From: Paramacrobiotus metropolitanus
Taxonomy: Eukaryota > Tardigrada > Eutardigrada > Parachela > Macrobiotidae
Assembly (NCBI RefSeq): GCF_019649055.1
Contig: NW_026570274.1
Coordinates: 806,001 to 870,000, forward strand
Length of the DNA stretch: 64,000 bases
Reading direction: 5' to 3'
The position numbers and the translations under genes were made by a program. Within the stretch, counting starts at the first letter, position 1, and each line of letters begins with the position of its first letter. Below, piece after piece: positions 41,652 to 59,200 of this stretch. The notes under the pieces were generated by a model, which was not told where the DNA came from, did no database searches, and was given only the letters and a program-made list of their open reading frames with translations.

Positions 41652-42010
41652 CTAATGCTAGATCCAGCAGTGATCCAGATACGGAGACCTAAACGGAATA
41701 GATCCCGTGGAGTGAGCTATGCGATAAGTATAGCGAACTACGCGGAATCGCGAAACGTCGCACCGCTAATAGCTGACTTTTAATAATATTGAAAATTCCG
41801 ACAACAGAAAATCAACAATGATCGGCGCAGCTCGATCGTAAAGCGTGGAGCCCATTCAACAGTGTGTAACACTGTGCAGCACGTGCTATGCCGCGCCCAC
41901 TAACACAACTCAAGCCAATCAGAAGAGACACAACACAGACACGTAATCCTAAGGCGTAGCGCCACAGGCGTAGCGCCACTGACGTGAACGCTAGTGATCC
42001 CGGTCTCACA
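41652..42010 (-). repeat. 3' LTR (element sense)
   Basis: Element-sense 5' end TGTGAGACC. The shared sequence ends CATTAG rather than the usual CA; both copies include TTAG, so it belongs to the LTR. A 13-bp direct repeat (ggcgtagcgccac) lies at 41953-41979. A CCAAT box (gccaatc) is at about 41914. No purine-rich tract is obvious just inside this LTR. Confidence 0.93.
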
Positions 42011-44722
42011 TGCCTCTGGGGGGATGCCGAGCTCCTGTGAGGCTGGACACACTCCCGAATCCACGAGAAGACGACGGTCGCCGGTGTCTGTGTGTGCTCA
42101 AAAACATCAAATTCTCTTAATCCATTTTATCACATCAATTACATAAAGGCACAATTTCATTTTAATACGATGTGAATAAAGAGATCCAATTATAAAAATA
42201 CTATCAAATCATTAGGAACAGATCAACAATAACAGATCAACAAAAGTATTAATCAAATTGTAGACTAGGATCCTCCATTTCTGACTCGCAAAGGTCACAG
42301 GTCCTGTCCACCGTTTGCCGCACATTGGCCCATTCCGCTCTGTTGAGCAATCCTGCGCATCCATAATGCGACTTTCCATCACAATCCGCTTGAGAATCAG
42401 GTGCGTATCAAGTACGACTTAGGAATACTGCTTCAATCTTTAGAATCTGGTGCGTATCATTCGTACGACTTCAAAATGAGATCCAATAAAGGTCATGGAG
42501 GGACGTCAATGAAGACAAGCGTAGTTCGCTTCCTCCCTAGTAAAGGTCATCCTTTGTTGAGATGATCCGTTGAGATGTGCGACTCGTTTTGGGTTAATGG
42601 TCCCAAAGGTCATGCGACTTGAATTCCGATACGGTGACTCTATTGGGCAATTGATGATCCCAAAGGTCATCCCACTCGTCAAAACTTCTGTTAAAGGTCA
42701 TGGAGGAACTTAGCCGATTTTCTGCGGCTTCAAGCACTTCTTTGCTTGCCTCCCTGGTAAAATTTGCAGTTTGACCTTTCCGTCGCACATCCAACTTCAA
42801 TATGCCTCGAGCGGCCAGAGTGCCGGCAAGTTTACCGTAGCATCTCTGATGGGGCCGGCTAGTTACCGCATTAAGTTTTACCCCATGAAAATTCCATCTT
42901 AAATCTTTTACTCTTGTTCGCCGCTTGTGGCTTACGTTAGTACGAGAAATCCGGCTTGATTACCGTAGTTTTTCTCGTTTTAATTATAACACTGAATCGC
43001 TTGAAAAGAGTGCCGGCATAGTTTACCGTAACAACTCTAATGAGGCCGGCTAATTGCCGCATTAAGTTAACCTCATCAATATTCCATCTGTTGTCTTTCT
43101 CTTTTTCGCCGCTTGTGGCCCCGTTTCGTGTTCAAGAGATCCGGCTTGATTACCGTCGTCTCTCTTGTGCATTTATAACACTGAGTTGCTTTTAGAGGAG
43201 GGCCGGCTAACTGCCGTAGCAACTCCCTTGGGGCCGGCTTTATAGACCGAATCAATTTCAACCCCAATAGATATTCCCCATGATTTCTTTATCCTTTCGA
43301 TTCTGTGCTATAAACGCTGAAAACAACAAGTACACGAACGCGGTTTCAGTAATATGTTACGTGACCTTTATACTTTACCATTGCGCCTAGTTAGGCTATA
43401 CCGTACTGAACTGAGACTTTCGCATTCAATTCTGATTCTGATGACCTTTCGTTACTTTAACGTGATGACCTTTCCCGTGCTATTTTTCAGTCCAATCGTC
43501 TCATTCTAACACGGCGACCTTTCACGTTTTTGACGTTTCCACCAGTTCTCCAGCGATAACTAATTAACATTCAACTGTTTCTGATCTGTTCGCCATTATT
43601 CGAGTACAAAGTTCTTCCAGTTCTAAGTTGACAGCCTTGTAACTCAAAAGGTCATGTCGTTCCATTTAATCGACATATATTATCCATTGTCGCATTGGTT
43701 ATGACCATTCTCCACGCATTTTGTTGTGCTCTGGCAGCATTTTTCATTTCGCTGGTGTACCGGACGTATCCCGTTTCTGGGGGAATGCCGAGTCCGTTGG
43801 TTCGGTTTCCTGACTCTGTTTCTCATCGGTTGTCTATCTCGTCGATGATCCGGACGAAGACTGAGTCGATTTCGGTTCGTCAGTCTTCTCTTTTACGGCT
43901 AAGTTTCGTGACCTTTCGGTTTCTCCGTCGCTGAAGCCTCTTTCAACAGTGTAAACCACGATTTTTTTTTAAACCACCTGTCGCGCGGAGACCGCTTCTG
44001 CATCTATTGCCGCTTTTTCTATGGGGAGCATGACCTTTTCTTTCCCACCTTCTTTCAAAGTCTCGTGACCTTTCGGTTGTTCCGTAGACACGGAACACTC
44101 TTGACCTTTAGGTTGCGCTTCCTTCTCCACGGTTCCAGACGTTTCTTGACTTTTAAACTGTTCGTCTTTTTAGTCGTCAGTTATTTGACCTTTCGGCTTC
44201 TTCAAATGTCTGACCTTTGCCATAACAGCCTCGTCTGGAGTCTGATGACCTTTCGGTTGTTCCCGCATTTTTCCAAATCCTCTTGACCTTTTACTTTTTC
44301 CGTTTGAATTCCAGTTGGAGTCTAGTGACCTTTCGAATGGTCGCTCACTTCTTCCGTTTGTTCTTCCGTCTGTGTTTCGATTTCACAACCTTTCGACTGG
44401 GCGACAATTTCTGATGACCTTTCGTCCCGGATGACCTTTGTGAAGACCGTCCTGACGAATTTGAGGACCTTTCGACCTTTCTGATGATTCCGGACTTTTG
44501 TGACCTTTTCGTTGTTCATTTGAATTTCGGTTGAAGTATCTTGACCTTTCGATTGACCTTTCATTTCTCCCGTATGATTCAGTCTGATGACCTTTCAAAT
44601 TGACGACCTTTCTGGCTAGCAACGAAAACAATAACGATTGGCCGCTTTGCGTCGTATGGCCTTTATGCCTTCCCAACTCCTATTTTTAATGAAGTGAACC
44701 CCATTATTCATATTTATCAGGG
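42011..44722 (-). other. Long 3' UTR of the LTR element
   Basis: About 2.7 kb between the integrase tail and the 3' LTR with no long ORF. It has three zones on the plus strand: 42290-42780 with aaaggtcat words; 42817-43270 with a tandem hairpin array; 43370-44620 with tgacctttcg words every 40-70 bp. Short ORFs at 43695-44676 are by-products of the repeated word. Confidence 0.7.
42817..43267. repeat. Tandem array of CCGGC-core hairpins with covarying stems
   Basis: Two full ~190-bp units and one partial unit carry eight hairpins sharing an inner core (CCGGC..(T)ACCG or TGCCG) but with different, self-complementary outer stems: CAGAG/CTCTG 42817-42849, ATGGGG/CCCCAT 42849-42886, ACGAGAAA/TTTCTCGT 42942-42978, AGAGT/ACTCT 43007-43038, ATGAGG/CCTCAT 43040-43076, CAAGAGA/TCTCTTG 43133-43167, GGAG/CTCC 43197-43226, TTGGGG/CCCCAA 43228-43267. 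Each unit also has cgccgcttgtggc or a trace of it. A ninth hairpin (TACTGT/ACAGTA) is in the 5' leader at 58410-58441. Compensatory changes support real folding. Confidence 0.82.
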
Positions 44723-46609
44723 TTATTTGTTTTCGCGTCCTTTAGTTATCCGATCAAGGAGTTCTTTCTCGGCTGCATCCTCAGGTTCGCCTTTCTGTGT
44801 TAGCAGTTCCGTAGGAGTTTGTTTCTTCTTCTTCTGCTTGACCTTTCGCTCATTGATTGCTTTCGCTATATCACGGCCCAATTGTTCAGCTTTTGATTTG
44901 ACCGCCTCTATTTCCTCTTCTCTCTTTCTTATGAGGTCATCCTCATTGCCGGTAGCAGTGCGTGGTTCGAAAAAATTCGAATCGCGCTCTGATATCTCAG
45001 CGCCAGTTCGCCGTTTCGAAAGGTCATCCTTATCTCCGGTAGCAGTGCGTGGTTCGAAAAAGGATTGTTGCAAGTCCTTTTCGGAAGTACGCTCTGGTAC
45101 TTTGGAACCTAATTCGGTCTCTTTTTCCAGTGACCTTTCTGCCAAATTTCCAGCTTCTGCGTTCAGCTTAATTGTAACTGCCGTCTCGAAGTCCTTATCT
45201 TCTTTCCTTTTTCTTCCTCTCTTCTTATTTGGTTTATCTCCGTCTTGGTGACCTTTGGTCTCTTCATTAACTTCATGTAGCAGAGGTGGTTCGAAAAAGG
45301 ACTCTTTTTGGAGGGTATGCTCTGCTACCTGCTCTTTCTCGTCTGGTAAGGGCGGGTGCCATGGTTTCAGCCGATCGATCGAAACGACCTTTAAGTCTGC
45401 TTCTTTCTTCGGGTTCTGCTCGATGACCTCTGCTTCGTTTGCTCGCGGGAAGCTAAGGATCTTCCACACTTTATCGTATTTCGACTTAAAGTCCGACTGG
45501 TTCTCTTTCTTCCCTTGTTTCGTGTCCTTTGGTAATCGTATCAGTACGAGGTCGCCCACTTTGAAGTTCGGCTCCGATTTTTTCTTATTGTAAATTTCCG
45601 CATTCTTCTCGTATGCGTCTTTGATATTGCATTTCGCCACTTCTTCTGCAAAGGTCAAGTTCCTTTTCATGGTCTCCACCCATTCGTCTGGAGTTCCGTA
45701 ATCATCGGGTATATTCGTTTTTGTAACCACATCTTCCGGCATTGTCATTTCTCTGCCGTGTAGCATATAGTATGCTGAATATCCCGTTGTGGCGTGCACG
45801 ACTCTGTTCATCGCCGAAATAACATATGGGAGATACTTGTTAAACTTTCGCTCATTTCCCGCTTTTAGGTATTGCGCCAAGCCATCAGCAATCGTCTGCA
45901 TCTGTCTCTCCACTTGGCCTTGACCTTCTGGGTGATACGCCGTTCCAAATCTGTGTTTAATTTTAAACACATTGGTGACCTTGCCAATACTTCAGCTGTA
46001 AAGTGTCGTCCGCGATCCGTATGCAGGATGTGCGGTGCTCCGTGTACCAATATCACGTGCTTCACGAACACTTTAGCGAATTCTTTAGCCGTTGCTGTTT
46101 TCATCGGTACCGCGATCACGTATTTCGTCAGTTGGTCGATAAATACCGCTATGTACTTGTATCCACGTTTCTTCGTCGGTAACAAAGGTCCTTTCAAGTC
46201 AGCATATACTCGGAAGAACGGATGTCCCACTTTAATCTCTTGCAATTTTCCGGGTGGACATTTCCTCGGTGTTTTACGGAACTGACATCCTTGACAGGCG
46301 AGTATGTAATTCTTCACGTCTGTACTCATCCTGTCCCAGTAATATCGGAGTCTTATTGCTGACAATGTTTTCTCAAATCCCAGATGTTGCTTTCTCGTCG
46401 TGCAATGCGTGGATTATTGCTCTTCGCATTGACAACGGTACAACATATGACCTTTCAAGTTTTCCATTTTTATCCTTTACTCGGTATAATATACCATTCC
46501 ATAACTGGTAATGCACTTCAAATTTCGATCTTGTTTCCGCGTCTGGTAGGTGTTCGTCTATGATCATTGCCAGATGGGGATCTTTCAACTGTTTATTCCG
46601 CAATTGCAA
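44723..46609 (-). pseudogene. pol: Integrase, interrupted by two frame changes, with long C-terminal tail
   Basis: Three frame segments. 46609-46373 has the start of the HHCC domain (IIHALHDEK) and then stops. From 46372 to about 45975 a different frame gives RYYWDRM, CQGCQF, VYADLKGPL (first Asp) and LHTDRGRHFTAE (second Asp). From about 45970 the first frame returns with FGTAYHPEGQGQVERQ (catalytic Glu), completing the DDE set, then the C-terminal beta domain (VGDLVLIRLPK, SIDRLKPWHP). A tail of about 200 residues carries three FFEP-type repeats and ends at 44723. Each break is explained by a small indel; whether biological or a sequencing error cannot be judged here. Confidence 0.88.
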
Positions 46610-48285
46610 GTTTGAGTCATCAATCCTTTCTCCGCTGCTTTATCAAGTCCAGTGACCTTTCCATTATGAACTTCGGCCTCTGCTTCAAGTCCGGTGACCT
46701 TTAAGTCACTAACGGTGGGCAACCAACTTTTTACACGATTCACATTAGCTTCTATTTCAGCCGACTCATTCGCCGTAGCTGAAGTGACCTTTAACCGTTT
46801 TTCTCGTTGTTCCACCATCTGTAGGAACAGCTGACCGATTTCGATTGCTGGTTCTTTCGTGTCAAATTCCTTTTTATAATCCTCGAAGTTTGGAATCTCA
46901 TCGAATTCCTCTTCTTGACACGTCGGGCCTTCAATTGGTGCTCTTGATAACGCGTCCGCATTATCGCAGTACTTTCCCGGTTTGTATTCAATTTTGAACT
47001 GGTGACCTTGCAAGGCCATTGCCCATCTTGTCAAGCGCGGGTTCATTCCGACTTTGTTCGTTTCTGACCTTAAAAGGTTGGTCAGTGCCTGATGATCCGT
47101 CCTTACGGTGAATTCTGCGTAATCGATATACGGCTTAAATTTCCTGACAGCGAACACAACTGCCAGACACTCCCATTCCGTCACACCGTAATTTTTCTCC
47201 GCTCCATGTAGGACACGACTGGCGTACGCGATCGGATGTCCATCTTGTGACAGTACGGCTCCGATTCCTTCTTTACTCGCGTCGCATTCAATGACGGTCG
47301 GTTTCGCGGGGTCAAACTTTGCTAGTACTGGACCTTCACACAACAACTTCTTCAAACTATCGAACTCTTCTTCATGTACTGCCGTCCAGTCCTTTTTCAC
47401 GTGCTTATCTTGTCTCAGCAGTTCATATAAGTGGGAAGTCTTCTGTGCGTATCCCATTATGAATTTGCGATAATAGTTCGCCAGTCCAAGGAATGACCTT
47501 AATTGTCTTTCAGTCTGAGGCCGTTTGAATTCGGAGACCGCGGTGACCTTTTCCGGGTCCATTCGAATTCCGTCCTCGCTGAGTATATGACCCAGAAATC
47601 CCATTTGTCTCATTCCAAATTCGCACTTGGTTGGTTTAATCGTGAATCCCGCTTCAACCAGACTCATTAAGACATTTCGCAGGTTCTGCATGAAGATCGC
47701 CCAAGTCTTTCCGGCGAAGATTACGTCGTCAATGTACCCGAAAACGCAACCCTTTCTTTTCGCTTTCGAAAGTACTTTATCCATACACAATTGAAATGTT
47801 GCTGGTCCGTTGCAGACTCCAAATGGCATTCTTTTAAATCGGTACATTCCATCTTGTGTTACAAAAGTCGTCTTGTTGATTGACGCTGGATCCATTGGGA
47901 TCTGCCAGAATCCACTTTGTAAGTCCATTTTTCCGTAATATTTGTTGCCTGCACACGCGTCAAGCAATTCATCTGGGTTCGGTAGCGGATAATTGTTCTT
48001 TCTTGTTAACTTATTAAGCATGATATAGTTGACGCAAAATCGCGTTCCCATTGTTCCGTCGCCATTTTTCTTTACTGCCAGCACGACTGGGAAACTCCAC
48101 TCGGCGTCTGACGGCTCGATTACATCTTGTGCCAACATCTCTTCGATATGCTTCGTTATAAACTCACGGCCTGTCCAACTCGTTCTGGCCGGGTTACATT
48201 TTACTGGTTTCGCATCTCCCGTATCGATTACGTGGGTGACCCCTTTCACATCTCCATACGGTTTCTTTGATGTGGGTAAGACCTT
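46585..48285 (-). CDS. pol: Reverse transcriptase and RNase H
   Basis: In the same frame as the pre-RT ORF after one TAG. RT motifs in order: FPVVLAVKKNGDGTMGTRFCVNY, PLPNPDELLD, DLQSGFWQIPMD (first catalytic Asp), MPFGVCNGPATFQ, and FGYIDDVIF with YIDD near 47728 (the other two Asp). Connection: FLGHILSEDGI..., LRSFLGLANYYRKFI. RNase H has VIECDASKEG, EWECLAV, VRTDHQAL and DNADALSRAP, the D-E-D-D set. All visible catalytic residues are kept. The end (CNCGINS stop) leaves the frame just before integrase begins in the -1 frame near 46600. It copies genomic RNA to DNA in the particle. Confidence 0.9.
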   Translation of the reverse strand, partial: KVLPTSKKPYGDVKGVTHVIDTGDAKPVKCNPARTSWTGREFITKHIEEMLAQDVIEPSDAEWSFPVVLAVKKNGDGTMGTRFCVNYIMLNKLTRKNNYPLPNPDELLDACAGNKYYGKMDLQSGFWQIPMDPASINKTTFVTQDGMYRFKRMPFGVCNGPATFQLCMDKVLSKAKRKGCVFGYIDDVIFAGKTWAIFMQNLRNVLMSLVEAGFTIKPTKCEFGMRQMGFLGHILSEDGIRMDPEKVTAVSEFKRPQTERQLRSFLGLANYYRKFIMGYAQKTSHLYELLRQDKHVKKDWTAVHEEEFDSLKKLLCEGPVLAKFDPAKPTVIECDASKEGIGAVLSQDGHPIAYASRVLHGAEKNYGVTEWECLAVVFAVRKFKPYIDYAEFTVRTDHQALTNLLRSETNKVGMNPRLTRWAMALQGHQFKIEYKPGKYCDNADALSRAPIEGPTCQEEEFDEIPNFEDYKKEFDTKEPAIEIGQLFLQMVEQREKRLKVTSATANESAEIEANVNRVKSWLPTVSDLKVTGLEAEAEVHNGKVTGLDKAAEKGLMTQTCNCGINS

Positions 48286-51090
48286 CTAGAATTCCCAGAA
48301 TGCGTTGTACACGTCGTTTTTCTGCTCTTGGGTAAGGTCAGGTCCCAATTTCAAGTTTTCGATTATCTTTGTAAGTTCAGCTTTCGTTGTATCGTCCACC
48401 TCAGGGTCTTCGAGTACGTTCTTTACTGTCCCTGCGTTGACCTTTACGTTCTCCATATGTTCATACGGCTCGACATAGCCGAGAAGCTGATTTTTCTTCA
48501 CGATCCGGTATTTGCTACTATGGTTCGCAATGACGATTTCAAAGTACTTTCCTCTGTGGTCCGTTACTCCTGCTAATGGTTGCACTTCCGTTTCCACTTG
48601 TGGGACCGGTGTGAACATCAGCTTGTTTTGAGCCGGGGCATATTTTCCCATCTTGACCTTTACGCGTGTGCAATTTGACGGTTTCAGTTTAATTCGTTGG
48701 TCACTGTAGACTTTGATCACGTCTTTGGACATTCTTGCTTTTTCCACTTTCAATCTTCTGACTTTAATATCCTTTTCTTTTTCTTCATCCACTTCGTCAT
48801 CCTCATCCAAGTCCATTAAATCCTCTTGCTCCGAAAGGTCACTTACACCTGAATCTTCCGAAGTTGTTGAATTGTCGCTTGAACTCGTCCACTCTGAATC
48901 CGAATTACTGCTCTCATATTCCTGTACAGTAGCTTGACCTTTGTCAGCTTTTTCAATTGGGCGCTCATCAACTCCTTCGTCTTCTGATGAAAGGTCACTT
49001 TCGTTTTCCCGCGAATCGCTAAGTTTTTTCGCTTCCGAATTTTTGAGCAGAGGTTTGTCCCCTTCTTTTGCCTTTCGTCCATTTCGCGCGGCGACTCTTG
49101 GGTGACTCCTTGTTACCCGAATTCTCGTCGGTGACCTTTCTGATTGATCGGAGTTTGACCTTTCTTCGTCCGATTTTGACTTTTCCAGTTCATTTATTTC
49201 TTCAAGGCTCGTTAATGGCTTTTCGGTCCACTCGACCGGCGGACATTCCTCACCGTTATCGAGTGACCTTTCCCCGTTTTTTGCCTCAGTTACTGGGTTT
49301 TGCTGTTCATTCGATATTCGTTCAACTTCTTCTTTAAACTTCTTCCACATTTCGCCTCTGTCCGTTAACATCTGCGCAATGTCGAAAGCCGACTTTGAAC
49401 TTTCTTCTGTTTCGTTCGATTGTCCTTCGGCTATCTCTTGAGCTGGTTCCTCTTTCTCTGCTTCTTTGACAGTCCCTTTATTGGTTTCATCCTGTTGAAC
49501 TGTTTCGTAACCTTTAGGTCGGTTAGGACCAACAAAGATGCAGTTTGCCATCAGCTCTTCGGTGACCCATTCATCATTTGGAATCGTTTCATACATGCAC
49601 CATGTATCACCGCCTCGTTCGGGGTAGTCCACTCCATCTGGATCTGGTGCAAAGGTCACCTTTTTCTTTTGCACTAATCCCGGTAACCTTCTTTTCCGGG
49701 TAACCTGTAGTTCTCGCATCTCTTTTACGTCAAATTTGGGGATTTCTTCCTCGAATTTCTTCCAGTATTTCTCGAATGCTTTTTCGTTTCCCTCTTTTAA
49801 CGCGTTGTAGTACACTTCAAGTGATTCGTAGACGGGTGTGCCAAGTCCTGCCGGGAAAATAATCGTTCTCCCTTCTCCTTTATACATGTGGTTCACACGG
49901 AAGTCCCAGAAAAGGTCAACTCTCGCTTCTTCCCACATTTCTCCTTCCTCGGTCATTTCTTCTATCTCTCGTTCAAATCTCCTTTCTGTTGCTACCGGAT
50001 CGAGAGGATCTTGGATTCGTTTCTCGACACGTTGCAACCAGTGGTTTAGCCATCTGCCTCTTCCAATTATAAAACTTTCTACACATGACAACCACGTTCG
50101 ATATCTATTCCAATGATACCGTTCGATGTGTGGTTTCCACATTTCGTTTGTCCGCATGATGCTTTTCGCTTTCTTTTGGGCATGACCTTTAAGGTCTGCT
50201 AATGCGGCATTACATCTTGGCCATTCTGAAGGGTCATCTTGAGAGGCATTTTCACAACACTCCGCGCATTCCCATTGTGGTTGCACTCTGCACGGATCCT
50301 CAAAGTAACCGTGGTGACAACTCCCGGCTCGTTCTTCTGGAGTTAATGTCCTTTGACTCGCTTCAGGTTTAACCTGTTCCTGTACTGTGGTATCTTCCTC
50401 ACATTCGATTGGAGTCACGCTTTTATCCTCAGAGGATATTTCAATAACCTCTGGTTCTTTTTCTGTTCGGTGACCTTTCAATTGTTCGAGTGCCTTATCG
50501 CGGATTTCGCTTGTAAACATCTGTTCCTCTTCAACTATTCGTTTCAAAACTCGTAACCTTTCACTCTTTTTATCCTTCCCCACTTTAGCCGTCTTTATTT
50601 CCAGTGCCTCTGGTACTGGGATAGGCTTTGCCCACTCCATGTCTGGCACAAGAGATTGTTTCGCTGCAACTGCCGCTTCTTTCTGTGTGGCAATTATCTC
50701 TTCAATCGTTGGTGACCTTTCGGTAGCAGGTCGTGGTTCGAAAAAGGGTTCCTTTTGAGATTCACTTTCTGTTACTTCCTCTTTGGTTTTATCTGAAAGC
50801 CTTTCATTTTGGGTAGCAGATCGTGGTTCGAAAAGGTTCGAATTACGCTCTCGTTCCAAGTTCTCAGTTGCTGGTGACCTTTCGTCTTCCTTTCCCAGTG
50901 CCTCTGGTACTGGGATAACTTTTCCGACTTTTCCATTTTCATTTTTCGTTTCCAGTGCCTCTGGTACTGGGATAATTTCTTCCTGCTGCACTTTTGTCAT
51001 TCCCGGTGCCTCTGGTACCGGGAATAGTATCTTTTTTTTCTTTTCGTTTCCCGGTGCCTCTGGTACTGGGATTAGCGTTTTATTAACCAT
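48286..51090 (-). CDS. pol: Long pre-RT region of pol, unknown domain
   Basis: 934 codons between protease and RT, a place where Ty3/Gypsy elements normally have a short linker. It begins with five copies of IPVPEA-type repeats (PVPEAPG, PVPEALE) plus LFEPRSATQ and FFEPRPATE repeats. A folded-looking core follows (about 260-520: Cys/Trp-rich QWECAECCENASQDDPSEW, then SFIIGRGRWLNHWLQRVEKR and ESLEVYYNALKEGNEKAFEK). An acidic Ser-rich tract comes next, then the usual pre-RT beta strands (EVQPLAGVTDHRGKYFEIVI). It ends in an in-frame TAG directly before RT. I do not recognise the core. It could be acquired host sequence. Confidence 0.7.
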   Translation of the reverse strand: MVNKTLIPVPEAPGNEKKKKILFPVPEAPGMTKVQQEEIIPVPEALETKNENGKVGKVIPVPEALGKEDERSPATENLERERNSNLFEPRSATQNERLSDKTKEEVTESESQKEPFFEPRPATERSPTIEEIIATQKEAAVAAKQSLVPDMEWAKPIPVPEALEIKTAKVGKDKKSERLRVLKRIVEEEQMFTSEIRDKALEQLKGHRTEKEPEVIEISSEDKSVTPIECEEDTTVQEQVKPEASQRTLTPEERAGSCHHGYFEDPCRVQPQWECAECCENASQDDPSEWPRCNAALADLKGHAQKKAKSIMRTNEMWKPHIERYHWNRYRTWLSCVESFIIGRGRWLNHWLQRVEKRIQDPLDPVATERRFEREIEEMTEEGEMWEEARVDLFWDFRVNHMYKGEGRTIIFPAGLGTPVYESLEVYYNALKEGNEKAFEKYWKKFEEEIPKFDVKEMRELQVTRKRRLPGLVQKKKVTFAPDPDGVDYPERGGDTWCMYETIPNDEWVTEELMANCIFVGPNRPKGYETVQQDETNKGTVKEAEKEEPAQEIAEGQSNETEESSKSAFDIAQMLTDRGEMWKKFKEEVERISNEQQNPVTEAKNGERSLDNGEECPPVEWTEKPLTSLEEINELEKSKSDEERSNSDQSERSPTRIRVTRSHPRVAARNGRKAKEGDKPLLKNSEAKKLSDSRENESDLSSEDEGVDERPIEKADKGQATVQEYESSNSDSEWTSSSDNSTTSEDSGVSDLSEQEDLMDLDEDDEVDEEKEKDIKVRRLKVEKARMSKDVIKVYSDQRIKLKPSNCTRVKVKMGKYAPAQNKLMFTPVPQVETEVQPLAGVTDHRGKYFEIVIANHSSKYRIVKKNQLLGYVEPYEHMENVKVNAGTVKNVLEDPEVDDTTKAELTKIIENLKLGPDLTQEQKNDVYNAFWEF

Positions 51091-51110
51091 TTGAGCATTT
51101 CCCGTCTGTT

Positions 51111-53588
51111 TTACAAGTTCGGTGACCTTTCCGACTTGAACTTTGGCGACTGGTTTTGGGTCGTCTTCTTTCTCTTCTCACCTTCGTTATCCATTAGTAC
51201 GAATTTCTTTTCCAAGAAGTCAAATCCCAATAACACTTGTACGTCGTCACACTTCGGTCGGACGTAGAATGAATGTTCGCTAGTCTTTTTCCTTAAGGTC
51301 ACTGGCGCTACACAGTAGTGCGTCACCAGGAATCCTGACGTTCCGCTAATTCCATTTATTTTCACCAATCTGTCAGGTGGCAATGGGAGCATGTGGAGTC
51401 CATTCTTCTCGCAAAACGGTTTGCTGATCAGCGACGTCTCAGCGCCGGTGTCCAACATTGCGTTGACCTTTATGTCTCCCACTTTCACTTCGTGTGTGTA
51501 CGCTTCAATTCTCTTGGGCAGTTTTCCATTTTGAATCTTCAGTGTATGAATCTTACATTTCACAGGGATGAGCGATACTGGTCCTGGATCCATATCGGGA
51601 AGCACTTGTCCTTTTGCTGGAGTGCTATGACCTTTCAATATCTCGCTCAACTTATCAATCCTATGTGGAACGTTAGTCCGAACATCGTAATATTTTCGCG
51701 GCTTTTCTTTATTTGTTCGCTTCTCTGTAGCCATTTTAACACCGGTGACCTTTTCCACATTCTGCACTTGCTCATTTGCTTTTGTGCTATCCATGTGACC
51801 TTTAGTCACTTCATTTATCGTCTGATGGATCAATTCCTCTTTACGATTTTCATTTCGTTTATCTCTCAGCTTCTCAATGACTTCACTTGTTATTTGGTCA
51901 GCTCGCTTCAATTCGTCTTCTTCATCATCTCTCATCTCCTCTGGTGACCTTTCATATGTGACCATATTATATCCCTTTTCGGTCATCCATTCGATCACTT
52001 TCGCGGACACTTCATTGTTCGTTTTCGTCGGATCGATTTGTGAAGACATTCCGTCTGTTCGGGCTGGTGACTTGTCATTGGCATCCTTTTGCAGTGCCTC
52101 CGATAAGTCCCGTGACCTTTCAACTGCGCCACCCTGTTGCATTTGCGCCATCTCGTTTGACCGTCCTTTTTGTGCATTTTGCGCTAAGTCCTGTGACCTT
52201 TCGTTGCGCTTCATGACAAATCCGCCGTTTGTCAGCTTTTGTAAGGGGACTTTTTCTCCGTAATTCGGCGGTTTATCCTGTGGCGGAGCATTACGTGAAT
52301 AATTCCAGTCAGCAAGTGTCTTCTTATATTCCTCTGGATTGAATGCTGGGACTGGGTTCGGTGACCCTTGCGCTGGTTTCCCGGTAACCAACTCTTCTAG
52401 TCGCTTTCTTTCACATTGCGTTCGCAACTGTTGCATGTCCCAGTAGTCCTCTTGTGACATTTTCGCTTTCTGCTTTGCCTTCGGCGTTACGGGTATCCAC
52501 ATCCCGTGATTCCCATTCGGTCTGTAGGCCACTTTTTGCCAGATTTCCTTCCGTTGCAGCGTTATTGCATCTACAAGTGAGTCATCGGAGTTCTGTTGTG
52601 CCAATTCGCCATTCTTTTGCTGCGCTGTTCGCAGTGTCAAGTCTGTTTCTTGACCTTTTAACACGACGCTGTCGCCGTGACCTTTCGCATTCGCACTCGC
52701 TCCTTGACCTTTAACTTGGACTTTTCCAACAGAAGGTGACCTTTCATCTTTACTAATGGCGGTGATGTTTTGCTTAATCCATTCTTGCCTTATTCGCTTC
52801 TCTTCTTCGGATTCTGAACAATTCCAAAACTTTGGCTTTGGCTCTCCGTAACAGTCGCAACTTGGCTCATTCGCTTTATCATTTCCTGCCAAGTATTTCC
52901 GGAATTTCGCGTGTTGCTCATTTCCCTCTTGCGCAGTATCGTTCTGCGGTGGTGAATTTTGGTCTTTCGATTTGCCATTTATCTGTTTTCGGAACCATTC
53001 GTGGTGCATTTCCACTTCTTCTGCGGTATCAGTTTGTGGTTTCTTCTGGTTTAACAGCGCTTGTTGAATCTTGGCATTACGTAATGCACGACGTTCAGCT
53101 AGCACTTTCTCGCTGCAATACGGTGACCTTTCATTTTGCTGCACTTTTTGCAGTGTCGCGCTACCGTCACGACAATTTCCACTCGCAGTACCATTTTGCG
53201 GTGACCTTTGGTCCCGTTGCGCGCTTCCACTCGCAGTACCATTCTGCGGTGACCTTTTATCCACTTGAACATTTCCACTCGCAGTACCATTCTGCGGTGA
53301 CCTTTCACCTTGTGACGGTATCCCTATAACCGTTCCATTTCCTTTTTGCGATGACGGCATCCATATAGCCGTTTCTCTTTGCTGTGGCGGCATCCATCTA
53401 GCCGTTTCTTGTGGTTGCGGCATCCATATAGCCGGTCCACTTTGCTTTTTCGCTGACGGCATCCATATAGCCGTCGCAGTGGTCACATTCACTGCAGTAC
53501 CATTCTGCAGTGGTGACCTTTCCCTTTTATCCGGTGGTTTAGGGTCGGGTCGATCAGTAGGCTCACCGGTGCCTACTGATCTTGCCCG
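51111..53588 (-). CDS. pro: Pro region: repetitive linker and retropepsin-type protease
   Basis: Entered by -1 frameshift at 53588; 825 codons to TAA. The N-terminal ~600 residues are low-complexity, with repeated blocks: AIWMPS-type (53330-53470), RSPQNGTASG (53170-53300), and many ERSP, KGH and KVT tripeptides that derive from the AAAGGTCA word read in three frames. The C-terminal part is an aspartic protease of the retropepsin type: MLDTGAETSLIS (catalytic DTGA near 51450), flap-region residues, then VLLGFDFLEKK. It cleaves the polyprotein. The next ORF lies in the -1 frame and overlaps the end by about 65 bases, but no canonical slippery heptamer was found there. Confidence 0.82.
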   Translation of the reverse strand, partial: RARSVGTGEPTDRPDPKPPDKRERSPLQNGTAVNVTTATAIWMPSAKKQSGPAIWMPQPQETARWMPPQQRETAIWMPSSQKGNGTVIGIPSQGERSPQNGTASGNVQVDKRSPQNGTASGSAQRDQRSPQNGTASGNCRDGSATLQKVQQNERSPYCSEKVLAERRALRNAKIQQALLNQKKPQTDTAEEVEMHHEWFRKQINGKSKDQNSPPQNDTAQEGNEQHAKFRKYLAGNDKANEPSCDCYGEPKPKFWNCSESEEEKRIRQEWIKQNITAISKDERSPSVGKVQVKGQGASANAKGHGDSVVLKGQETDLTLRTAQQKNGELAQQNSDDSLVDAITLQRKEIWQKVAYRPNGNHGMWIPVTPKAKQKAKMSQEDYWDMQQLRTQCERKRLEELVTGKPAQGSPNPVPAFNPEEYKKTLADWNYSRNAPPQDKPPNYGEKVPLQKLTNGGFVMKRNERSQDLAQNAQKGRSNEMAQMQQGGAVERSRDLSEALQKDANDKSPARTDGMSSQIDPTKTNNEVSAKVIEWMTEKGYNMVTYERSPEEMRDDEEDELKRADQITSEVIEKLRDKRNENRKEELIHQTINEVTKGHMDSTKANEQVQNVEKVTGVKMATEKRTNKEKPRKYYDVRTNVPHRIDKLSEILKGHSTPAKGQVLPDMDPGPVSLIPVKCKIHTLKIQNGKLPKRIEAYTHEVKVGDIKVNAMLDTGAETSLISKPFCEKNGLHMLPLPPDRLVKINGISGTSGFLVTHYCVAPVTLRKKTSEHSFYVRPKCDDVQVLLGFDFLEKKFVLMDNEGEKRKKTTQNQSPKFKSERSPNL

Positions 53589-53594
53589 TTTCCC
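53552..53594 (-). promoter_or_regulatory. Programmed -1 ribosomal frameshift signal, Gag to Pro-Pol
   Basis: In element sense the Gag frame reads G_GGA_AAC (53594-53588), a canonical X_XXY_YYZ slippery heptamer. After a 6-base spacer comes a perfect 11-bp stem (gatcagtaggc with gcctactgatc; 53571-53581 and 53552-53562) with an 8-base loop. The Gag stop TAG (53575-53573) lies inside the stem. The downstream protease ORF is in exactly the -1 frame and is open through this site. Confidence 0.88.
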
Positions 53595-56203
53595 TGAACC
53601 GGCGCCCCACCTTGTTGTACGCCTTGCACATTTGCTTGTTGTTGTCCGATATTATTTGCCGGGTTAGGATTCTGTCCGCCACCGTTATTATATTGGCCGC
53701 CACCCTGTTGGTAGTTTCCTTGGCCGCCGCCATTGTTCTGGCCTCCTCTGAAGTTTCCGCGGCCGAAGCCTCTGTTTCTTCCTCTGAAGCCGCCGCGGCC
53801 GAAGCCTCCACGGCCGAAGCCGCCATTCTGGCCACCGCCATTTCCATTTCCGTAGTTCCCGTTTCCATTCCCTTGTTGGTTTTGGAAGTTTGCCTTATGT
53901 TGGTACCATTGGGTGATGAGGTCATATCCGTTTGCGACCGCTGGGCGCCAGCCACCTATAGCTCGGAGGCGTTGCCACTCGTTAAAGGCAAACAGATTCG
54001 GGTTCTGTTCTGGTGGTGTATTGGCGAACTTGCACCCCTGTGTCTGATGGTTGCCGTACATACAGTACTGGCACATCTGCACATTGTTCGCCACCCATCC
54101 GTCAATCATCTGGAACTTAAACTCAGTTCGTGACCCTTGGTTTTGCTGTTGATTCCCTCTGAAGTTCCCTTGACCTTGACCTTGTCTCTGATTCTGGAAG
54201 TTCCCCTGACCTCCATTCCAATTTCCATTTCCGTATCCATTTCCGCCAAAGTTTCCATTACCCCCACCTTGTTGTGGTAACCCGACATTCATAGGGACCA
54301 TGTTCTGTGGTGCAGGTGGGGCCACATTCTGGGGAGCCACATTCTGGGCTACCGGTCTCACTTGAGCTGCTGCCTGTATCGCCGCCACCATCGCATATGT
54401 TATCGGTTGTCCCGTCTGACTGTCGATAAAAGTCACCTTTTCCGTGACCTCTCTGACCGGAGTCTCCACACGGTATTCGACTGGTTGCTGGGGTGGTGCA
54501 GCTGCCATTCTCTGTGGCGGCACATTTTCGACTTGCCCTTGGCGGATGGTCACGTATTCCTGATTACGTTGACCTTTAGGCGCCTTATATTTCTCTTCGC
54601 CGGTGGCCCAATGTCGGAAGAAATCCTTCACGTCCGTTGGCGTCTTGCACTTTTGTATGCGCAGGGCTTTGTAGAGTTCGTTATCCCCTCTACATCCTTC
54701 AATTAGGAAACCCACTGCTTGTTTCTCTGTGATGATCCGTTTTGCTTTGAATCGCATCATCGCCTGGTAATACTGGTCAAGTGATTCTTTTCCGAGTTCG
54801 AATTTTCTTGCATAGGCCTCACGTAGGCCTAAGACTTCTTCATCCCGATCTCCGTATTCGTCTTTGAATTTGTCCATCCACTCTGTGATTGAGTATTCAA
54901 TCCCATCTTCTGCTGCAATGTCCTTTTCTCCTTCGAACCAAGTTTTGGCAGGACCTTTCACCGCACTTGCTATCTCAATCATGATTTGGTCGTCCGTCAG
55001 CTGGTAAGTCCTTTGGGTTTCTTTCACCAATCGTGTCCACCCACTCACTGTGTCACGACTGCCGTCAAAGGTCATGAGTGGTGTTTTCCTGGCCATCGAG
55101 TTGAGTGCTTTTGTTAATTGCACCGCTGTATTTTCAGCTCTCTGGTCATCGTCTTCTTCGCTACTTCCATCATCACTTTGATTTCGTTTTGACTTTCCAT
55201 ACCGGGATTTCCTAGGACGCTCCTGCCGGCTGGGGGGTCTATCCCGTCGCCCTTCATCGATGAACACATTTGTTTCCATGTGCGGGGGAAATTGTGAAGG
55301 GTCACCTCGACTCATATGCGGGTAACTTTCCGATGGTGGTTCTTTGTCATCTTTAGCCTTTTCCCCGTCCTTTTCGTTTTTGACACTTCCTCTGCCAGTA
55401 CCAGTTCGTAGCGGCATATCGAAGTGGAAGCTTTTACCCGTGCCCGTTTCATGCGCCTTGCTGTAACTGGGCGGGGGCGATTCCACCGTTGATGTTCTAA
55501 CTCCGTGTTGTAGGAGCTGTTCATCTTTGTGTTTGTTGGACATTTGAAGAGCTTTATTCTCATCTTCAAGGCGCTTAATCCTTAAATCGAATTGTTCTTT
55601 CTCATTCTTCAGGTTCTGATTCTCTTGGTTAACCTTCGACATCTGCTGATGCAGTTGAAGCGTTTTGTCTTGAATGACCTTTTCAGTATCATTTTCCACT
55701 TTCCTGATGTGTCCCGCCAACTGGGTCACATCCCTTTCCAACGTCATGTATTCTTCGGCTGCTGCTTTCAGCTGATTTTTCGTCACGGTGACCTCATCTT
55801 CTCTTGTCATCGCCGTGTGTGTCATATCAATCAGCTCCGTATTCAGTCTGATAATCTCCTGTGTCTTCTGATGGACCGTTTGTTGCCACTCTTTATCCTT
55901 CAACTCGAGCACTGTGACCTTTTCGTCCAAAAGGTGTGCCTCATGTTCCCACCTCATGCCTTGCTCGGCAATTGTCTTAGCAGTCTTTTTCAACTCGGTA
56001 TTCTCTTCGGTGACCTTTCGAACATCTTCTTTCAACGACTTGTTCTCTTCCATCACCTGCTTAATTTCATTCTTCAGCCTCACACCTTCAGTGGCTGTGA
56101 GCTCCCTCAGGTCCTTAGCCACTTTGATAGCGTCATCGGCTCTCTTCTGATGATCTTGTGATTCTTTCTGAAGGGTTCCAATGTTCTCGTCCCGTAACTT
56201 CAA
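53573..56203 (-). CDS. gag: Gag main part: coiled coil, capsid, CCHC zinc knuckle
   Basis: 876 codons. Residues 1-240 continue the coiled coil. A charged Arg/Ser/Glu linker follows. A Retrotrans_gag-type capsid lies at about 375-530 (TPLMTFDGSRDTVSGWTRL.., KTWFEGEKD, EYGDRDEEVLGLREAY). The CCHC knuckle CQYCMYGNHQTQGC (CX2CX4HX4C) is near 707-720. Flanking tails are Gly/Asn/Gln/Arg-rich with RGG-like repeats (GRGGFGRGGFRGRNR), typical of nucleic-acid-binding nucleocapsid regions. The ORF ends in TAG inside the stem of the frameshift hairpin. It packages genomic RNA and forms the particle. Confidence 0.88.
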   Translation of the reverse strand: MKLRDENIGTLQKESQDHQKRADDAIKVAKDLRELTATEGVRLKNEIKQVMEENKSLKEDVRKVTEENTELKKTAKTIAEQGMRWEHEAHLLDEKVTVLELKDKEWQQTVHQKTQEIIRLNTELIDMTHTAMTREDEVTVTKNQLKAAAEEYMTLERDVTQLAGHIRKVENDTEKVIQDKTLQLHQQMSKVNQENQNLKNEKEQFDLRIKRLEDENKALQMSNKHKDEQLLQHGVRTSTVESPPPSYSKAHETGTGKSFHFDMPLRTGTGRGSVKNEKDGEKAKDDKEPPSESYPHMSRGDPSQFPPHMETNVFIDEGRRDRPPSRQERPRKSRYGKSKRNQSDDGSSEEDDDQRAENTAVQLTKALNSMARKTPLMTFDGSRDTVSGWTRLVKETQRTYQLTDDQIMIEIASAVKGPAKTWFEGEKDIAAEDGIEYSITEWMDKFKDEYGDRDEEVLGLREAYARKFELGKESLDQYYQAMMRFKAKRIITEKQAVGFLIEGCRGDNELYKALRIQKCKTPTDVKDFFRHWATGEEKYKAPKGQRNQEYVTIRQGQVENVPPQRMAAAPPQQPVEYRVETPVREVTEKVTFIDSQTGQPITYAMVAAIQAAAQVRPVAQNVAPQNVAPPAPQNMVPMNVGLPQQGGGNGNFGGNGYGNGNWNGGQGNFQNQRQGQGQGNFRGNQQQNQGSRTEFKFQMIDGWVANNVQMCQYCMYGNHQTQGCKFANTPPEQNPNLFAFNEWQRLRAIGGWRPAVANGYDLITQWYQHKANFQNQQGNGNGNYGNGNGGGQNGGFGRGGFGRGGFRGRNRGFGRGNFRGGQNNGGGQGNYQQGGGQYNNGGGQNPNPANNIGQQQANVQGVQQGGAPVQGNGQDQ

Positions 56204-56204
56204 T

Positions 56205-57368
56205 TCATTTCTTAAACACTTCGTTGGTGTTTGTCAGCAATCGTTGGGTCACGTCGACGAGTTTGGCCGCGTATTCGTCTCGCTTGGCTTCCGCTTCGGT
56301 GACCTTAAGTTTAAGTGAGTCGCATTCGTCCTTCAATTCCGCTAAGTGCCGTGACCTTTCGGCTGATTCCTCTGACATGCTCTCGTTGAGGTCACTGACT
56401 GCAAGATGACCTTCCATTTCTCTGTCATCCACCATTTTCAAGTACTCTTCAGCGAGTTCTTTTTGACGCTCGTATTTGATCTTCCATTCGTCCGCTGCAC
56501 TTTCCAAATCCACCTGTTGTTGTTCCAGCTCATAAATACGAGCATCCAGAGATCCTATCCGATTTTGATATTCCTGTTTCTTCTTCGTCACTAGGCCTTC
56601 CTTGGCTTCGAGTTCTTCTTCCAACTCCTTCACGCGTCTCTTGAGAGTTGACGTGGGGCTGTTCGGTGGTGGCGGTCTAACATTGATGACCTTTCCAGTT
56701 TGTGTCCTTTCAATAAGGTGCTCGGGTATGTCCTTAAACGGTGTCATCCCTTCAGCACGGTCAGCTTCTTTCATCGCGGTCTGGAAGGACATATTCATTG
56801 TCGCTTCATCATCCGTGAAGTATGACTCGTTCGATTCGTCTGAGACCATCGGAGTTGCCCAAAGGTCATCACCGACAGTCTTATCGTGCAGTGAAAGGTC
56901 ATCCAATCCCAGTTCAGCCAATTCCATTTCTGTGACCTTTGTCCTGTCAGCTTCCGACTGAACCAGGTTTACATTTTTATCCTGTTCAGTAGTTCCGATA
57001 GTGGTAGCATCCGACTGTGATGCTCCGACTAGTTCCACTCCTTTCCCTGTGGGTATTTCCTCCCCGGTGACCTTTTTCTGGTTCATCGGATCGCTTCCCG
57101 CCGTAGACGCGGGAGTGTGCTTCTGGTCGTCGCTTGAACTTTCCTGATTGGCGACCGCCTCGAGCGCCTTCTGATAAGTGCTATCAGAGCCTCGTGAATC
57201 CTTCTTCTCGAATGCCTTGGGCGCTCGAGTGTTCCGCTCATGTCCAACTGGACGTGAGTACGGGTACAGATCCTTTTTGTATGGATTTGGTGCGCTTTGC
57301 TGTGAGCTGCGGGAGCTTTTGCTTCCCTGACTGCTGTTAGATGTCGGTTCCTCTTGTTCTCTGTCCAT
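56205..57368 (-). CDS. gag: Gag N-terminal part (coiled coil)
   Basis: 387 codons starting MDREQEEPTSNSSQG. The first ~230 residues are acidic and Ser/Thr-rich; from about 235 to the end there is a heptad-rich coiled coil (LKRRVKELEEELEAKE, IYELEQQQVDLE, LAELKDECDSLKLKV). It stops at AAG AAA TGA, and the next ORF continues the coiled coil in the +1 frame without a nearby ATG. The two are therefore one protein split by a +1 recoding site or a one-base indel. No matrix-like fold is recognisable. It likely drives Gag self-assembly. Confidence 0.75.
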   Translation of the reverse strand: MDREQEEPTSNSSQGSKSSRSSQQSAPNPYKKDLYPYSRPVGHERNTRAPKAFEKKDSRGSDSTYQKALEAVANQESSSDDQKHTPASTAGSDPMNQKKVTGEEIPTGKGVELVGASQSDATTIGTTEQDKNVNLVQSEADRTKVTEMELAELGLDDLSLHDKTVGDDLWATPMVSDESNESYFTDDEATMNMSFQTAMKEADRAEGMTPFKDIPEHLIERTQTGKVINVRPPPPNSPTSTLKRRVKELEEELEAKEGLVTKKKQEYQNRIGSLDARIYELEQQQVDLESAADEWKIKYERQKELAEEYLKMVDDREMEGHLAVSDLNESMSEESAERSRHLAELKDECDSLKLKVTEAEAKRDEYAAKLVDVTQRLLTNTNEVFKK

Positions 57369-58829
57369 ATTGATCGGATAACTTGGACGCTCCTGTCAAT
57401 TGTTCTCACACACACGTTATTGTATGGTTTATTCAATAATCCTAAAGGTCACTCTGAACCTCCGAAATTTTTCTAAGTCCTTATTAAAGGTCACTTTTCG
57501 ACTGAAAAATTTCGACTAAGTCCTTTTGTAAAGGTCACTTTTTCGGTAAAAAGTTCGAGAGATTTGCCCTAAAAGGTCACTTTCGGACAAAACTTCGAAA
57601 CCGCTTTTACAACTCAGAATACGTTAGCGAATGAAATCCTACAGCTACTGATATCGCTGTACTATTAATCAACTCAATTCCAACTCCGTTAAAGGTCACC
57701 GTTGATCACTTTCAGATCATAAAGGTCACTAAAATTAGGTCAATTTGATCAATTCCAACTTTTTGATAAAGGTCACTTTTCAAAGTCAAAAGTCAACTTC
57801 TGGTCTCAAAGGTCACTTTCCGACTCAACTCAACTCAAAGGGTCACTTTCCAGTTCAATTTCTGTTAAAAAGTCACTTTCCGCTCAATTCCAGTTAAAGG
57901 TCACTTTTAAGCTCAATTCGATCAAAGGTCACTTTTCCTTTGTCTCAACTCAAAAGGTCACTTTTCGTCTCAATTATCTTATCTCAAATCAAATTTCCCA
58001 TTACAGCTAGAGTTCAGCGGAAAATCCCCATTCGGGTTTGTTTACTTCTTTCTGATTGGTCCGCTAGCTCAAAATATTCAGTTCAAATTTCGGCCAATCA
58101 CAGCTCAGATAATTGACCAATCACGTTATTCCGTTAAAAATTTTTATCTGCCTGACGTCACGGTCAACGGCCAGACATGCGCGCCGCGTGCAAAACTCCG
58201 CCTACTTCTACGCTCAGCTCAGTACGGACCAATGAAAAATGAGAATTTTACCATCTAACCAATCCCGCAATTAATAACGGGTTTTCTACCTGTTTCCTCG
58301 TCCGTTCCACGAGAATCGATCCAAATGATCCAGATTCTTCTTCCACTGTCCGTTCCCGCGCTGCCGCCGGTTTTACCGTAACGGTTGTGCCGCACGCTTT
58401 TTGGTCGGTTACTGTGCCGGCTGACTGCCGTAGCAACAGTAGTGGCGCTCTACTCCAGTTTGGAGGAGTCTGATCTGTCTTTTCCCGTGCGCCCCTTTTG
58501 GCGCTTCGCCGCTTGTGGCCCACGGCTTAGGCTTCGCTGAAGCCTTGCCGAGTAACGGTGACACCAGTGCAGGTCTTCGCTGAAGACACCGCACCGAGGA
58601 ACACCGCCGACTGAACTCTTGAACTCTTTCACAGCAGTGGAACAGCACAGGTCTTCGCTGAAGACACTGTACCGAAACCAAGGCTGGTAATCCCGTCCGA
58701 TGAGGAACTTGCACCGCTTGTGGTGTTGCGCTTTGCTGTCGGATAGACCTGTGCCTTACTGGTCGGGTTTCACGTCAAATAACAGGCCAACTTTGCCTGA
58801 CACAATTCAAATCAGAGAACCGCTGTCGG
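57369..58829 (-). other. Structured 5' leader of the LTR element
   Basis: About 1.46 kb precede the first ORF. From 57440 to 57970 the plus strand repeats aaaggtcact every 30-60 bp. From 58400 to 58740 there are strong stem-loops: 58529-58546 (ggcttc/gaagcc), 58569-58592 and 58647-58670 (both gtcttc/gaagac around gct), and the CCGGC-type hairpin at 58410-58441. A structured leader beside the primer site is where packaging or dimerisation signals usually lie; that role is inferred. Confidence 0.65.
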
Positions 58830-58840
58830 CTCTGCTACCA
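58830..58840 (-). promoter_or_regulatory. Primer binding site, initiator-Met-tRNA-like
   Basis: In element sense the bases are TGGTAGCAGAG, one base after the LTR end. This is complementary to the last 11 bases (CTCTGCTACCA) of metazoan initiator methionine tRNA; the match stops after 11. Confidence 0.8.
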
Positions 58841-58841
58841 T

Positions 58842-59200
58842 CTAATGCTAGATCCAGCAGTGATCCAGATACGGAGACCTAAACGGAATAGATCCCGTGG
58901 AGTGAGCTATGCGATAAGTATAGCGAACTACGCGGAATCGCGAAACGTCGCACCGCTAATAGCTGACTTTTAATAATATTGAAAATTCCGACAACAGAAA
59001 ATCAACAATGATCGGCGCAGCTCGATCGTAAAGCGTGGAGCCCATTCAACAGTGTGTAACACTGTGCAGCACGTGCTATGCCGCGCCCACTAACACAACT
59101 CAAGCCAATCAGAAGAGACACAACACAGACACGTAATCCTAAGGCGTAGCGCCACAGGCGTAGCGCCACTGACGTGAACGCTAGTGGTCCCGGTCTCACA
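58842..59200 (-). repeat. 5' LTR (element sense)
   Basis: Identical to the other LTR except at 59187. It should hold the promoter and start site; a gattggc (inverted CCAAT) and an AT-rich stretch (ttcaatattattaaa in element sense) are visible, but no start site can be fixed. Confidence 0.93.

Follow-up and report, generated by a model that had tools for sequence, protein, structure and literature searches.

A 64-kb window of the genome of the tardigrade Paramacrobiotus metropolitanus (the whole stretch of DNA analysed here) contains a 17.5-kb long terminal repeat (LTR) retrotransposon of the Ty3 type (41652-59200, minus strand) that carries 89 copies of a single 8-base word, AAAGGTCA. The word is kept across copies of the element in a manner that almost certainly reflects purifying selection acting on it as DNA. 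Judged from its letters and its distribution, it is quite likely read by a nuclear receptor, and we consider it rather probable that the receptor is NR4A in particular; as an overall explanation, we lean towards the words serving as sites at which a nuclear receptor of the host, most likely NR4A, docks. Among the matches listed in a search of the literature on tardigrade or nuclear-receptor-linked retroelements, we found no earlier report of an element saturated with such a word.

The word occurs 99 times in the window when both strands are counted, and 89 of these copies fall between 42290 and 57960 (27 on the plus strand and 62 on the minus strand), in agreement with an original prediction, made from the letters of the window, of about 85-90 copies in some 16 kb and about ten elsewhere. 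Dinucleotide shuffles gave far lower counts: 100 shuffles of the whole window contained 2.73 words on average (largest 8), and 300 shuffles of the 16,831 bp that separate the LTRs contained 0.87 (maximum 7) as compared to the 89 observed. The 10 words outside this interval likewise exceed the shuffle mean. Open reading frame (ORF) intervals contain 50 of the 89 words, 41 in sense and 9 in antisense orientation, and two more lie between the counted intervals. The sense words are split 10/16/15 over the codon frames, so that all three are used, as had been proposed; none of the nine antisense words lies in the frame that reads TGA. The expected presence in both untranslated regions (UTRs) and scarcity in conserved coding DNA were also found (Table 1), with a single word, at 47544, in the catalytic core of the reverse transcriptase (RT) and RNase H (47007-48072) and none in the integrase interval (INT1). 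A suggested flip of orientation holds between the leader, where 11/11 words are antisense, and the ORFs, where 41/50 are sense; the 3' region is mixed. The proposed extent of the element, 42290-57968, was too small, its limits being set by the 359-bp LTRs.

We searched the 169.8-Mb assembly with the LTR, which gave 40 scored matches of 91-100% identity out of 275 first-look candidates, and assembled a family set consisting of the window copy and nine other insertions (eight near whole and one 10-kb part, C366). All nine are enriched for the word, and no family member without the enrichment was met; the set contains 811 words in 190,342 bp, against 9.5 expected under an order-1 model. The copies diverge by 7-12% from the window copy in aligned parts, and their LTR-to-LTR spacing ranges from 17 to 24 kb. 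In eight of the other insertions the two LTRs share 97.8-100% identity (a comparison limited to 145 bp for one pair), so the insertions look young. No word was found in the LTRs of the nine insertions with LTR pairs checked.

The copies diverge far less at the word than around it. After alignments shorter than 150 bp or below 75% identity were dropped, 61-77 of the 89 words could be compared in each near-whole copy and 9 in the part copy, with unaligned parts uncounted. Summed over the nine copies, window words are intact in 501/565 comparisons, whereas nearby non-word 8-mers are intact in 17,845/33,761 (53%); in the part copy alone the figures are 7/9 for words and 70% for control 8-mers. Comparison of all ordered pairs of copies under the same cut-offs gave 4,934/5,658 words kept, as compared to 3,005/4,988 for sixty anagrams of the word, or 1,424/2,999 without the two anagrams that overlap the word, which were excluded only after the result was known. 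Viewed from the other copies, 586 aligned words comprise 501 that match the window, 32 that are off by one base, 30 off by two to four and 23 that overlap an insertion or deletion; these differences indicate that words arise via point mutation plus other changes. Conservation extends to diverged relatives, in which 4/5 words are kept at 72% identity (L052 aligned with the window; control 8-mers 9%), 4/4 at 78% (L032; 17%) and 2/5 at 68% (L051; 6%).

This conservation is seen where protein sequence places little demand on the DNA. Counting gaps as differences here and in the UTRs, third codon positions differ in 56/1,094 cells inside words (5%) and in 6,262/31,182 outside (20%), while leader bases differ at 2.8% in words against 10.4% outside, and bases of the 3' region at 2.0% against 7.7%. 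Together with the use of three frames, the low third-position change leads us to reject selection for an encoded peptide; with the conservation in the UTRs, it supports the earlier proposal that selection acts on nucleic acid. The footprint of low change is eight bases long, joined in the UTRs by the next two bases (3.8% and 2.5%). Within ORFs, antisense words are kept in 71/72 comparisons and sense words in 293/335; for antisense words of the leader the figure is 78/88, and for those of the 3' region 45/49. Since both orientations are kept, and these would be two different sequences to a reader of RNA, the reader most probably sees double-stranded DNA.

The form of the site narrows the choice of reader. 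Across the family it is AAAGGTCAH: the base after the word is G in only 3/808 cases and otherwise C, T or A, while there is little constraint on the base before it (G 318, T 186, A 156, C 148). Position 1 is the most tolerant of change (C 40, G 43 and T 41, against 811 with A), and the scarcity of C there fits the NBRE and not TCAAGGTCA. Two papers describe AAAGGTCA as the NBRE, to which NR4A nuclear receptors bind as monomers (PMC7901948, PMC10419244). The match is letter for letter, and there is no sign of dimer spacing: in the whole family set, gaps of 12 or less separate 15 neighbouring pairs, and in 10 of these the gap is exactly 12. This lack of a preferred short spacing among close pairs leads us to reject sites for dimeric receptors. 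We also rejected ERR or FTZ-F1 as the reader; TCAAGGTCA, which we take to be the site of this type, is not enriched genome-wide (1,777 copies against 1,953 of the reversed form).

The word is dense in, and largely private to, one transposable element (TE) lineage. A second subfamily, some 65-73% similar where alignable, is saturated as well; two 3-kb pieces of it contain 29 and 16 words. Ten further 3-kb stretches hold 10 words, 9 of which are in L032, where an element relative resides; the remaining 27 kb hold one. Four 2.5-kb stretches beside the RTs of other families (10 kb in all) hold 0, 0, 0 and 1 word; three of these are Ty3-like from their protease or gag as read (L059, L060, L062) and one is LINE-like (L061), and L060 and L062 look like one family, so that three control families were sampled. 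The DNA and the other RT families sampled from this genome thus lack the enrichment. Genome-wide counts are 42,562 for AAAGGTCA and 15,522 for the reversed control, and close word pairs number 2,652 against 56 for the reversed form.

A few other repeats also carry the word; those that are not retroelements were found by patterns of word pairs, which biases their counts upward by at least two words each. Among them, a Polinton-like repeat is present in four copies with 6-7 words per 3 kb (L001, L003, L006, L007), and the sole copy tested, L007, encodes DNA polymerase B (Pfam, 1.2e-38). A repeat with a small, secreted-looking, signal-peptide-like ORF (L047:501-816 and L048:275-581) has 5 words per copy, and in L047 three of these lie no more than 120 bp upstream of the ATG; 5/5 words are kept between copies at 83% identity, against 29% of control 8-mers, and it is possible that these copies are host targets of the same reader. 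Words take up mirrored positions in a 4.5-kb element with 480-bp inverted ends (L045, two words per end) and in a 2.9-kb inverted repeat (L046, ten words). These carriers, few and selected by the word as they are, suggest a reader that is a host factor.

The host encodes a candidate receptor. Its NR4A ortholog is spread over three exons within G000:C45:296815-298439 and contains both the DNA-binding domain (DBD) and the A-box; its best match in the PDB is 1cit (NGFI-B, 1e-51), and the top four matches are all NR4A. Searching exon by exon, we found 63 zf-C4 profile matches in the genome, from which seven receptors were read: NR4A, two ERR-like, and one each FTZ-F1-, COUP-TF-, tailless/PNR- and E75-like. 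Names other than NR4A are our reading of the sequences, with ERR backed by a protein match: one exon is identical over 98% of its length (100% identity) to an ERR1-like protein of P. metropolitanus. An ERR-type domain (L042) lies on contig C22. For three of the seven receptors (the two ERR-like and NR4A) the sequence that follows the DBD can be seen, and among these the A-box of an NBRE binder is present in NR4A alone. Of the three kinds of reader originally put forward, a nuclear receptor is favoured, given that the word is identical to the NBRE and that an NR4A ortholog is encoded by the host. The text of the transcriptome paper for this species (PMC11191345) does not contain the terms NR4A, nuclear receptor, hormone receptor, transposable or retrotransposon.

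Taken together, these observations suggest a model in which a young Ty3-type lineage would have gathered AAAGGTCAH by point mutation and local duplication, and selection would keep the site over the internal body of the element, coding DNA included. The reader would be a nuclear receptor of the host that binds as a monomer, most likely the NR4A ortholog (of the NGFI-B/Nurr1/DHR38 type). With dozens to ~100 sites per copy, the receptor would be recruited along the element in cells where it is active, and, once bound, could keep the element open and transcribed despite silencing. We infer the binding, the cell type and the effect on chromatin or transcription, and advance an anti-silencing or expression role of the words only tentatively.

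Several observations weigh against this model. The LTRs, where an enhancer would be expected, are free of the word, which argues against a plain enhancer, and its absence from the sampled RT families indicates that there is no general need for the site. In the integrase-side ORF, words are unconserved (27/113 third positions differ, or 0.239, against 0.227 outside words), and just 14/21 comparisons of sense words in the 3' region find the word kept. The 24 one-mismatch forms of the word total 451 against ~204 expected, about twofold as a group; this excess would be as decayed or weaker sites would give. We assume that different 5' bases are required by ERR, FTZ-F1 and HNF4, and a literature search gave no support for this; other host receptors among the 63 zf-C4 matches could share the specificity.

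The main alternative to a host receptor is a reader encoded by the element itself, in the manner of VANC proteins: an accessory ORF, or else a domain within the ORFs that the window copy retains, would bind the word and lift silencing in cis and in trans, serving short copies in trans. Longer copies do encode some or all of four extra, uncharacterised ORFs 3' of integrase (Table 1). The 926-aa product, which starts with CX2CX12CX2C and includes an SR-rich stretch, is matched at 35-37% in the diverged, word-rich relatives L051 and L032, and weak similarity to linker histones, short of the cut-off, is seen for the 405- and 242-aa ORFs (E 0.12 and 0.10). Moreover, word saturation follows one lineage among the sampled RT families, as the motif arrays of VANDAL21 do (PMC5735166). 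By contrast, no confident DNA-binding domain was found in the ORFs by Pfam or by a PDB sequence search, the latter giving a best E of 0.14 and no match for the two ORFs with linker-histone similarity. The word is identical to a known host receptor site and is also carried by Polinton-like elements and the small secreted-ORF repeat. Finally, the window, C17 and C331 copies are without most accessory ORFs (the window copy without nearly all of those in longer copies) and still keep their words, with LTR pairs 97.8-100% identical, so that an element-encoded reader would need to act in trans. We consider a reader of this kind unlikely.

Another host DNA-binding protein, whether a tardigrade-specific nuclear receptor or some other factor, could instead read the site as an insulator or silencing boundary, much as Su(Hw) does on Drosophila gypsy. 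The 63 zf-C4 matches leave room for such a protein, and PMC12941274 reports a group composed almost solely of tardigrade C4 zinc-finger proteins. Of the three receptors with a visible post-DBD part, however, NR4A alone has the A-box of an NBRE binder, and the sites are spread across 16 kb of coding and non-coding DNA and do not form one block. This explanation appears improbable.

Recognition at the level of RNA, in which Gag, another RNA-binding protein or a small RNA would read GAAAGGUCA in the genomic RNA, might be suggested by the strong sense bias in ORFs (41/50). This bias is expected anyway, because in one frame an antisense word contains a stop and in the other two it encodes the peptides TF or DL. 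Retention is as good for antisense as for sense words, and a few DNA-type repeats carry the word, which leaves an RNA reader, one of those originally proposed, very hard to sustain; the word also has what we take to be the form of an 8-mer miRNA site, a reading disfavoured likewise by the retention of both orientations. Least credible is the spread of a functionless word by biased mutation or tandem duplication: some words do lie within diverged local repeats, but words show about four times fewer differences than third codon positions and UTR bases elsewhere, the one-mismatch forms (0-47 copies apiece in the family set) are all far rarer than the word itself (811), and the flanks, judged by eye, appear unrelated at most sites.

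The structure of the element is that of a Ty3/gypsy retrotransposon, with paired LTRs, a likely primer binding site, and Pfam domains in the order protease, RT, RNase H, integrase (Table 1); among 120 relatives listed, the named ones include the Pol proteins of transposons 297, 17.6 and 412. On the element strand the LTR starts with TG and ends with TTAG instead of the usual CA, and the sequences flanking the LTRs, CTCCA and CTCCG, are possibly a 5-bp target duplication with one mismatch. The primer binding site, TGGTAGCAGAGCC, is presumably of the initiator-Met (iMet) type. The gag-like ORF is named from its position and knuckle, as Pfam gave no significant match. A structure predicted for 227 aa (window:49672-50352:-) of the ORF that separates protease and RT was unusable (pLDDT 40). 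Near 46616-46621, in the integrase region, 184 bp found in other copies are missing from the window copy, even though a single base distinguishes its two LTRs.

Table 1. Features of the element in the window, followed by accessory ORFs of longer copies; sense and antisense are relative to the element.
Feature	Coordinates	Strand	Words	Basis or remark
5' LTR, 359 bp	58842-59200	-	0	single mismatch to 3' LTR
Likely primer binding site, TGGTAGCAGAGCC	58828-58840	-		one base past 5' LTR
5' leader array	57444-57960	+	11, all antisense	each word followed by C
ORF1, 387 aa	56205-57368	-	6 (4 sense, 2 antisense)	no Pfam domain
gag-like ORF, 876 aa	53573-56203	-	5	CX2CX4HX4C knuckle
ORF with long low-complexity region and retroviral-type aspartyl protease	51111-53492	-	16, all sense	PF13975 3.5e-8
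ORF between protease and RT, 934 aa	48286-51090	-	14 (10 sense, 4 antisense)	no Pfam domain
RT and RNase H	46585-48249	-	4	PF00078 1.3e-25, PF17917 3.5e-34
Integrase, H2C2 and core parts	45865-46365	-	0	PF00665 1.5e-9, PF17921 1.2e-8
Integrase-side downstream ORF, 415 aa	44723-45970	-	5	sole non-conserved word group
3' region	42290-44595		26 (19 sense, 7 antisense)	
3' LTR	41652-42010	-	0	LTR pair comparison
Accessory ORF, 926 aa	L012:1850-4627			
Accessory ORF, 242 aa	L012:4930-5655			
Accessory ORF, 405 aa	L012:5672-6886			
Accessory ORF, 705 aa	L029:7283-9397			

Two further features of the window lie outside the element. A 192-bp tandem repeat (40260-40820) is located in or beside minus-strand ORFs that adjoin the element, and similar sequence is present at several further sites in the window. 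Between 1296 and 33268 are many minus-strand ORFs of ~310-370 aa; the one tested is a rhodopsin-type G-protein-coupled receptor (PF00001). A G-protein-coupled receptor of the window shares 80% identity with a P. metropolitanus protein.

If the words are indeed docking sites for a host receptor, the element would be an animal retroelement with a distributed host-receptor code inside its genes, kept at synonymous sites, and hence a case of DNA binding shaping coding sequence. It would exploit a gene switch of its host, constitute an animal, host-factor counterpart to plant VANC arrays, and offer a directly testable instance of transposon escape from silencing. The genome of a stress-tolerant animal would hold ~27,000 extra receptor sites, perhaps enough to alter the behaviour of the receptor. 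A broader and decidedly more speculative proposal, which we hold to be doubtful, is that the lineage could be a genome-wide parasite of the NR4A pathway: it would account for most of the ~27,000 NBREs in excess of the reversed control, keep sites through its own coding DNA, couple its opening and transcription to NR4A activity, and possibly to stress or DNA damage, and act as a large sink for the receptor.

Among known systems, the VANDALs of Arabidopsis, which are DNA transposons, offer the closest comparison. Their anti-silencing systems, VANDAL21 with VANC21 and VANDAL6 with VANC6 (PMC5735166), have in common with the tardigrade element a short fixed word at very high density in one TE family; there, too, the word builds up through tandem repeats, changes of a single base matter, and an unrelated TE, AT9TSD1, shares a word. 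The VANDAL words, however, are read by the element's own VANC protein and lie mainly in non-coding DNA in a setting of DNA methylation (PMC5735166), whereas the reader here is only predicted and the word is a host receptor's site. What is new with respect to VANC-type arrays is thus an animal LTR element that bears such a word in coding DNA as well, in three frames, with 50/89 words in ORFs. Its LTRs, likely iMet-type primer binding site, protease, RT-RNase H and integrase liken it to Ty3/gypsy elements (Metaviridae), from which it differs in its 17-24 kb LTR spacing, the 934-aa ORF between protease and RT, the 3' accessory ORFs of longer copies and the saturation with the word. Drosophila gypsy, also a Ty3-type element, presumably resembles it further in having a cluster of sites for the host zinc-finger protein Su(Hw) in its 5' leader; we take these to be about a dozen sites in one block, whereas the tardigrade sites run over the body and ORFs. 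Known host targets of NR4A are promoters with a few sites, as compared to ~90 conserved sites in one element here. The 8-base monomer site is nevertheless the same as that used by NR4A receptors (NGFI-B/Nur77, Nurr1, DHR38) on the NBRE, as described in PMC7901948, PMC10419244 and PMC6381605, and an ortholog of these receptors is present in the host.

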